A stretch of 64,000 bases of DNA from Sphingomicrobium aestuariivivum (GTDB lineage: Bacteria; Pseudomonadota; Alphaproteobacteria; Sphingomonadales; Sphingomonadaceae). Of this stretch, positions 31,822 to 33,750 are shown piece by piece (positions within the stretch are counted from its first letter, which is position 1; each line of letters starts with the position of its first letter). A model generated the notes under the pieces. The model was not told the origin of the DNA, did not search any database, and was given only the letters and a program-made list of their open reading frames with translations. The translations under genes were made by a program, and so were the position numbers. The stretch is from positions 1 through 64,000 of the forward strand of contig NZ_CP102629.1 of NCBI RefSeq assembly GCF_024721585.1, in the 5' to 3' direction.

Positions 31822-32406
31822 GTGATTGTCGGGGTGGATGAAGCCGGTCGGGGGCCGCTTGCGGGACCCGTGGTGGCGGCTGCCGTGCACCTGTGCGGCA
31901 CGCCTATTCGCGGTCTTGATGACAGCAAGAAGCTCAAGGCCGAAAAGCGCGCCGTGTTGGCCGAGCGCATCCGTACCCGCTGCAAGGTGGGTGTCGGCAT
32001 CGCCTCGGTCGAGGAAATCGACGAATATAATATCCTCAACGCCACCATGCTGGCGATGGCCCGCGCGGTGGAGGAGTGTTGCGCCGCACTCGGCTGCGAT
32101 CCGGCCGAGATCCTCATCGACGGCAATCTCACCCCCGAAGGGCGGCGTGCCGAGTGGCGCTGGGCCGGCGCGCGCGCGATCATCGGCGGCGATGCCCGCG
32201 AGAAATGCATCGCCGCGGCCTCGATCATCGCCAAGGAAACGCGCGATGCGATGATGGCCGATTACGAGATCGTGCATCCAGGCTACGGCTTCGGCCGGCA
32301 CAAGGGATATGGCACCGCGGCGCATCTGGCGGCGCTCCGGAAAAAGGGCCCGAGCCCGCTGCATCGCCGCAGTTTCGCGCCGGTCGCACAGCTCTGCCTC
32401 ATTTAA
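31822..32406 (+). CDS. rnhB: Ribonuclease HII
   Basis: This 194-residue protein has the RNase HII signatures [16 protein letters not shown] (catalytic DE pair), [12 protein letters not shown], an aspartate in ILIDGN and the [10 protein letters not shown] segment, then [14 protein letters not shown]. It cuts RNA from RNA-DNA hybrids and removes misincorporated ribonucleotides. It starts with GTG 3 bases after the ABM stop. In Caulobacter and many alphaproteobacteria rnhB also lies directly before ccrM, as here. Confidence 0.95.
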
Positions 32407-32415
32407 TCGGCGGTT

Positions 32416-32568
32416 GAGTCTTTAGAGTCACACCACAAGGGGTTGAGTCCCCGCGATTCCGCCGGACTCAATATCTTGTGGTTAAGGCGCTCATGAGTCC
32501 GTTTGACCGCCCCATGCGTTAAAAGCCTGATTCTCCGCCGAATCTTGACCGCGAATCATGGTTGATTC
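32416..32568. promoter_or_regulatory. Cluster of ten GANTC (CcrM) sites in the ccrM upstream region
   Basis: GANTC occurs at 32416, 32425, 32445, 32455, 32465, 32495, 32529, 32540, 32553 and 32564 (5-base sites). The five sites from 32425 to 32495 are separated by exactly 20, 10, 10 and 30 bases, and the last four by 11, 13 and 11, so most lie on nearly the same helix face. They fill the 195-bp gap between rnhB and ccrM. CcrM methylates exactly this sequence, so methylation-dependent control of its own promoter is likely. Confidence 0.8.
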
Positions 32569-32589
32569 AGGGGTCGAGGTCCGTTGTGA

Positions 32590-33750
<1,161 letters not shown>

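Follow-up and report, generated by a model that had tools for sequence, protein, structure and literature searches.

Why would a bacterium place ten target sites of a DNA methyltransferase in front of the gene for that same enzyme? CcrM methylates GANTC regardless of the central base, and a preliminary description of the first 64 kb of the single 2.346-Mb contig of Sphingomicrobium aestuariivivum (the window, by which we mean the whole stretch of DNA analysed) had pointed to ten such sites within 153 bp (32416-32568) before a gene that it called ccrM, with less than one expected from the GC content. All ten were located, starting at 32416, 32425, 32445, 32455, 32465, 32495, 32529, 32540, 32553 and 32564 (start-to-start spacings of 9, 20, 10, 10, 30, 34, 11, 13 and 11), and base composition indeed predicts only 0.5 site per 153 bp. 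Is this array an instrument of methylation feedback, is it a phased landmark for some protein, or is it both?

The gene and its surroundings

The name given to the gene holds. Its product has the CcrM model NF050803 as its best NCBIfam match (E 7.6e-187, 620 bits), although the model's curated cut-off of 830 is not reached; it is the sole match of its own protein in the genome at E <= 0.001, and it is 92% identical to CcrM of Sphingomicrobium astaxanthinifaciens, the closest named relative found. The genome likewise encodes GcrA (PF07750 match), with no GANTC in the 400 bp before the PF07750 match of gcrA, and a plasmid search with the 195-bp ccrM upstream region returned no match. The upstream neighbour, rnhB, is found on the same strand in 65/66 genus, 58/89 family, 22/22 order and 22/27 class loci of the survey described below, most family stretches spanning only 600 bp. 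Farther upstream, an open frame at 30248-31501 matches HMP-P kinase (ThiD) over the first 250 of 403 tested residues, the roughly 150 further residues being without an NCBIfam model, and possibly encodes a ThiD fusion. The parts of the region are as follows.

31822-32406, plus strand: rnhB, the upstream gene (NCBIfam match)
32416-32420, plus strand: distal site A, GAGTC, 39 bp left of the dyad axis
32425-32429, plus strand: distal site A', GAGTC, optional
32430-32436, plus strand: conserved non-GANTC letters ACACCAC (alignment, anchored consensus)
32434-32449, minus strand: left dyad arm CACAAGGGGTTGAGTC, holding site B (32445-32449); the minus strand reads as the arm pattern
32455-32459, plus strand: site X, GATTC, on the dyad axis, not conserved
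32465-32480, plus strand: right dyad arm GACTCAATATCTTGTG, holding site C (32465-32469)
32495-32499, plus strand: distal site D, GAGTC, 40 bp right of the axis
32529-32544, plus strand: extra proximal pair GATTC-N6-GAATC, just before the -35, common to the closest genus members
32545-32550, plus strand: putative -35 element TTGACC (comparison of loci)
32553-32557, plus strand: core site E, GAATC, in the spacer
32564-32568, plus strand: core site F, GATTC, its last C being the first base of the putative -10
32568-32573, plus strand: putative weak -10 element CAGGGG (CAnnnT-like after a 17-bp spacer in relatives)
32602-33750, plus strand: ccrM, 382 aa (NCBIfam profile, single-copy protein match)

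A dense array in a genome that avoids GANTC

How unusual is this density? Elsewhere in the genome GANTC is strongly avoided: the window holds 56 sites against 347 expected from dinucleotide shuffles, and an 864-kb sample (the window together with 40 stretches of 20 kb taken at even spacing, 37% of the 2.346 Mb) holds 532, or 0.616 per kb against 3.11 per kb by base composition. General avoidance of GANTC together with an intergenic excess is known in Alphaproteobacteria (PMC3973325). Within the 864-kb sample no other stretch of 153 bp, and none of 270 bp, contains more than four sites, and similarly dense intergenic regions, which the preliminary description had named as a refutation, do not occur in this 37% of the genome. 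For a 153-bp stretch to hold at least ten sites, the Poisson probability comes to about 1e-17 with the observed rate and to about 1e-10 with the composition rate.

The runner-up cluster of the sample, at 1359326-1359372, has four sites spaced 9, 11 and 22 bp apart and lies directly before a frame that by eye resembles a glutamyl-tRNA synthetase relative and that diverges from another frame. GANTC is also denser near the origin placed by GC skew, with 17-21 sites per 20 kb in six of seven stretches between 1455976 and 1823969 and six sites in the seventh; this is like the published excess of GANTC around ori, as far as that account describes it (PMC9836097).

GANTC-rich ccrM promoters among relatives

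Is this genome an exception? The main comparison comprised 204 alphaproteobacterial ccrM loci. For the genus, 71 genomes yielded 66 loci that were read upstream (one had no CcrM match and four had fragmentary or contig-edge matches; two split matches were kept). For the family, 146 other genomes were searched and 89 loci read (27 listed loci, 60 of 80 prepared regions and 2 from the class search). The order contributed 22 loci from 65 matching genomes in other families, and the class the 27 best-scoring of 135 matching genomes outside the family. A further set of 67 named loci was grouped by record titles, 66 of them entering the group counts, as the one dropped has only 170 bp upstream. CcrM itself was matched in 70 of the 71 genus genomes and in all 149 sampled family genomes, three of the latter being genus members. 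The surveyed loci share descent, and their counts are not counts of independent events.

The check proposed earlier, a count of GANTC upstream of ccrM in relatives, reveals many-site promoters to be widespread: the mean per 270 bp is 6.95 in the genus (66 loci), 5.83 in the family (89), 5.55 in the order (22) and 3.93 in the class (27), with ranges of 3-10 in the genus and 1-12 in the family. Among the named loci it is 3.73 for 11 Rhodobacterales-titled and 0.58 for 36 Rhizobiales-titled loci, the latter having 0-2 sites each. A GANTC-rich ccrM promoter is thus the rule in the sampled order, common in the class and not seen in the rhizobial loci, and the array recurs with fixed spacing in genus and family. 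Since many-site ccrM promoters are common in the family, we regard this genome as the high end of a general pattern.

A putative core promoter with two sites in its spacer

What, then, do these promoters share? The most widespread component is TTGAC followed by two GANTC, present in 150/204 loci (61/66 genus, 61/89 family, 15/22 order and 13/27 class) and in 0/4080 shuffled controls, which kept base composition only. By record title it occurs in 9/11 Rhodobacterales, 6/7 sphingomonad and 3/12 other named loci, and in none of the 36 Rhizobiales-titled ccrM loci. The two gaps of this TTGAC-E-F arrangement sum to 9 in 146 of the 150 loci, which means that F stands at a fixed distance from TTGAC and that E slides. 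The layout is TTGAC, a 17-bp spacer and CAnnnT, with both GANTC in or touching the spacer; CAnnnT, which is CATAAT-like in other families of the order, stands 17 bases past the TTGACn hexamer, and its first C is forced by site F, the following A not. Based on this layout, we infer a promoter with its -35 at 32545-32550, its -10 at 32568-32573 and E and F in or touching the spacer. The central base of E and of F varies among loci, a freedom that fits sites kept for methylation itself. Under the rule of this analysis, 5/66 genus and 23/89 family loci are without a proximal pair 9-11 bp apart.

Two further motifs accompany the core in some relatives. In Caulobacter, CtrA is described as activating ccrM only from hemimethylated DNA, in the account given by one study (PMC2217572). 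Here, a half-site scan finds TTAAC, possibly a CtrA half-site in the genus, 5-16 bp before TTGAC in 39/66 genus, 7/89 family and 0/22 order loci, and the window reads TTAAAA where its genus relatives carry TTAAC. Separately, 31/89 family loci (0/89 shuffled) and 1/66 genus loci carry a perfect DnaA box, TTATCCACA, in the 220 bp that precede ccrM; in family loci with an 11-bp E-F pair, the consensus places TTATCCACA directly after F.

A distal dyad with fixed central bases

The second component was seen in Sphingomonadaceae. Its centre lies some 100 bp upstream of the core pair, and in it GAGTC faces GACTC across one axis, in arms that read CACnA-N4-TTGAGTC twice in inverted order. This element is real, conserved and unusual, and its geometry and symmetry can be read directly from the loci. 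Counting from A, the arrangement of B at +29 and C at +48 to +50 is found in 61/66 genus and 65/89 family loci when B is optional, and the A-to-C spacing is missing in 5/66 and 24/89. All three sites are present in 44 genus and 49 family loci, and in every one of these 93 the central bases of A, B and C are G, G and C.

Could this constancy come from the way in which the loci were chosen? To avoid selecting by the tested feature, loci were anchored on the non-GANTC letters ACACC.C (a single anchor in 50 genus and 70 family loci, none in 15 and 16, several in 1 and 3). Among loci so anchored, GANTC stands at A in 50/50 genus and 66/70 family loci, at B in 45/50 and 55/70, and at C in 46/50 and 54/70, and the central base is G at A in 116/116, G at B in 100/100 and C at C in 96/96. 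Given that this base is irrelevant to CcrM, its fixation at A, B and C together with the conserved flanks argues that some protein reads these sites, and the mirror order of the half-sites suggests a dimer or a larger assembly.

The optional sites follow the mirror rule in part. A' is GANTC in only 21/50 genus and 4/70 family anchored loci, mostly losing the motif while the neighbouring letters stay, and its central base is always G. In the 44 genus loci with A, B and C, the axial position of site X is GANTC in 6, and that of site D, at +40/+41, in 40, with a central C in 25, T in 12 and G in 3; in this window D has G where the genus mostly has C. Left of the axis the rule gives G in 19/19 sites at -30 (genus). 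Right of it, C is found in 31/31 sites at about +29 in the family, and in the genus in only 2/9 at +29/+30 and 25/40 at +40/+41.

The arms are unique in this genome: with up to two mismatches allowed, the arm pattern matches the whole genome at these two places only. Across the sampled 864 kb, three combinations (TTGAC plus two GANTC, GAGTC-N14..16-GACTC and GAGTC-N24-GAGTC) each occur nowhere besides the ccrM locus, and the half-arm CACnA-N4-TTGAG has one further match, at 2342134.

Do the sites share a helical face?

The sites had been said to face the same side of the helix, a claim that stands within each module and fails for the array as a whole. A 10.0-bp repeat suits the six distal sites (R 0.97, with 0/2000 random placements as good) better than one of 10.5 bp (R 0.63, 103/2000); for the four proximal sites the fit is to 11.0 bp (R 0.84, 30/2000). 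For all ten at 10.5 bp, R is 0.53 and 66/2000 random placements do as well, and a single helical face at that repeat is unsupported. Across 58 loci, one per genus, inter-site distances repeat at 9.8 bp, with a power of 249 against at most 11.5 in 500 random placements; the power is 215 at 10.0 bp and 10.4 at 10.5 bp. This repeat persists after the commonest shared spacings are dropped, and common descent inflates the signal. The A-to-E distance measures 136-138 in 78/106 loci, and the other 28 distances gather about one helical turn below or above this (Rayleigh p about 6e-4, R 0.52 at 10.5 bp, the loci not being independent). Taken together, the two modules seem to be held in phase with each other, and the distal interior seems to follow a 10-bp rather than a 10.5-bp repeat.

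A proposed switch and its reader

Based on these comparisons, we consider it somewhat probable that ccrM has a two-module, methylation-sensing, autoregulatory promoter that is switched by passage of the replication fork; in outline, such a mechanism is likely. Module 1 would be a core promoter of old origin that has a weak -10 and carries two GANTC in its spacer; GcrA, together with the housekeeping sigma factor, probably reads it. Module 2 would be a dyad operator of GAGTC half-sites pointing at a common axis, and we predict that a sequence-specific protein, dimeric or oligomeric, occupies it. This protein would be either GcrA itself or an unnamed regulator, and adenine methylation would probably alter its binding. 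Passage of the fork would render all ten sites hemimethylated together, the occupancy would change, and ccrM would be turned on; new CcrM would then remethylate its own promoter and turn ccrM off, and the coupling of many sites may make the switch sharp. In this proposal we infer the methylation of the sites, the identity of the reader, the direction of the effect and its timing. By the GC skew of the sample, the origin falls at about 1.43 Mb and the terminus at about 0.28 Mb, a rough estimate from which ccrM would replicate late; late replication would suit a promoter that changes state at fork passage.

Both ideas in the preliminary description, methylation feedback and a protein that reads a phased array, draw support from comparison: from the recurrence of the array with fixed spacing in genus and family, from the fixed geometry in 146 of the 150 core loci, and from the reader implied by the fixed central bases of A, B and C. 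The picture of the array needs correcting, the loci presenting two modules of different phylogenetic depth instead of one uniform array.

Is GcrA this reader? GcrA is a known reader of methylated GANTC and regulates many genes. Its published extended motif, YGAKTCK, for which the relevant portion of the same study describes no such preference in Brevundimonas (PMC7987155), fits 3/10 sites here, 86/461 genus sites and 122/520 family sites, and the motif is unlikely to supply the organising letters of the array. The poor fit, together with an arm unique to ccrM though GcrA regulates many genes, disfavours GcrA as the reader of module 2, and the frequent loss of GANTC at A' while nearby letters stay disfavours a role for methylation there. 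Also counting against the proposed switch are the 36 rhizobial ccrM loci that do without the GANTC pair and the partial failure in the genus of the C rule right of the axis, site D of this window included.

Other explanations

Could the dyad instead serve as operator for some ordinary NrdR-, DnaA- or IHF-like transcription factor, its GANTC incidental and methylation mattering at most at the E/F core? We give this reading an appreciable, if minor, chance. The fixed central bases and flanks at A, B and C could mark just such an ordinary protein site, at which methylation would be incidental, and A' keeps its letters and loses its GANTC. The NrdR operator consists of paired CACnA-N4-TnGTG boxes, and the dyad resembles it in having two imperfect palindromes of the CACnA-N4 type about three helical turns apart; the genome's own nrd gene has such a box, ACACTATCCCTTGTGT at 1178799-1178814, which resembles a single NrdR box, about 0.24 kb before the ribonucleotide reductase gene start. 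The dyad differs, however, in its 33 bp from centre to centre, in its TTGAGTC half where the NrdR box has TTGTG, and in standing before ccrM rather than nrd. The same departure, TTGAG for TTGTG on the inner half, recurs in the 93 loci, which were chosen for having GANTC at both B and C, and we reject an NrdR pair as the identity of the dyad; no paper came up when the literature was searched for NrdR boxes in Alphaproteobacteria. As for DnaA, the perfect box of 31/89 family loci (0/89 shuffled) speaks for this reading, but the box is present in only 1/66 genus loci. An ordinary operator would, moreover, make up to ten CcrM sites, far above background and before ccrM of all genes, a coincidence.

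Alternatively, the sites may act independently and without any assembly, each adding to GcrA recruitment or to an effect on DNA shape, so that their number and not their arrangement is selected. The wide variation in number, 3-10 in the genus and 1-12 in the family per 270 bp, and the extra sites that some loci have at unshared places are what one would expect of such a promoter; the fixed spacings of 29 and 48-50, the fixed central bases and the phased A-to-E distances are not, and we judge this account unlikely. Were CcrM itself the reader, binding the dense array and so repressing or titrating itself, the occurrence of the arm only at ccrM would be explained. CcrM needs GANTC alone, however, which leaves the fixed central bases and the CACnA letters unexplained, and we hold this reading to be very unlikely.

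That the inverted repeat works as RNA, terminating rnhB transcripts or attenuating ccrM, is scarcely credible. The strand does fold better than 200/200 shuffles (z -5.0, DNA parameters), but the repeat lies upstream of the putative promoter, has no Rfam match up to E 1 and no T-run after it, and its varying arm positions show no covariation (the same letter in 40/93 and 59/93 loci at two positions); the hairpin or terminator was rejected. Chance or base composition has virtually no claim, given the small Poisson probability even at the composition rate and a conservation, with the same spacing in related species and genera, that already refutes it.

Comparison with known systems

The original ccrM promoter paper is said to be that of Stephens from 1995. 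According to the relevant part of a review, the Caulobacter ccrM promoter has two GANTC (PMC10073500), in agreement with the earlier statement that it has far fewer than the array here. GANTC in the ccrM promoter is common to both organisms; the differences are two sites there against ten here, and a distal dyad that the same part of the review does not describe. In the Caulobacter ctrA P1 promoter, a GANTC at -28/-29 lies about where E would lie relative to the putative -35 here, and among 96 cell-cycle start sites of Caulobacter that have a GANTC no farther than 50 bp away, only 11 have two or more, as these are presented in a study of start sites (PMC4287350). Up to five GANTC have been noted upstream of ctrA in Sphingomonadales (in the account of PMC8116508), and GANTC methylation has been measured in a Sphingomonas strain (per the description in PMC8067484).

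At a broader scale, an earlier survey gave 0.4-1.5 GANTC per promoter on average and, in its passage on these averages, drew no conclusion from richer ones (PMC2877005), and methylation control of ccrM has been termed most probable in a discussion of the subject (PMC3973325). A study of the GcrA regulon predicts ccrM to be a core GcrA target across many orders, lost in Caulobacterales, as its account of the regulon has it (PMC7987155). It shares with the present analysis GANTC before ccrM in many orders; it differs in that, by its description of the scoring, the number and quality of YGAKTCK sites counted and location was not considered, and most sites here misfit YGAKTCK. GcrA control of ccrM in many orders is thus already predicted in that account (PMC7987155). 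In the open-access literature searched, we found no description of the distal dyad, the central-base rule or the fixed two-site spacer geometry.

Is there a wider analogy? In gammaproteobacteria, clusters of GATC are read by SeqA. The array resembles such clusters in having dense, roughly helically spaced sites that would turn hemimethylated together, and differs in being made of GANTC, in lying at a promoter and not an origin, and in having directional half-sites with a dyad. SeqA is described as binding hemimethylated DNA in the relevant portion of one report (PMC2865523). We speculate, while thinking it rather unlikely, that the dyad nucleates a complex found only at ccrM, formed by a dimeric reader of hemimethylated GAGTC sites about 10 bp apart, a counterpart of SeqA in Sphingomonadaceae. 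If this were true, the dyad complex would make ccrM a switch-like sensor of its own replication.

Implications

The array bears on how the cell-cycle methylase is timed outside Caulobacter, and to our knowledge few readers of methylated GANTC have been described. Here is a cis element with an exact geometry, kept across most of the family and standing at one promoter of this genome. It separates two kinds of site that are usually confounded, namely those that would be kept as methylation targets (E and F, with a free central base) and those that are read by a protein (A, B and C, with a fixed one). With the two kinds separated, the reader should be findable and the switch testable.
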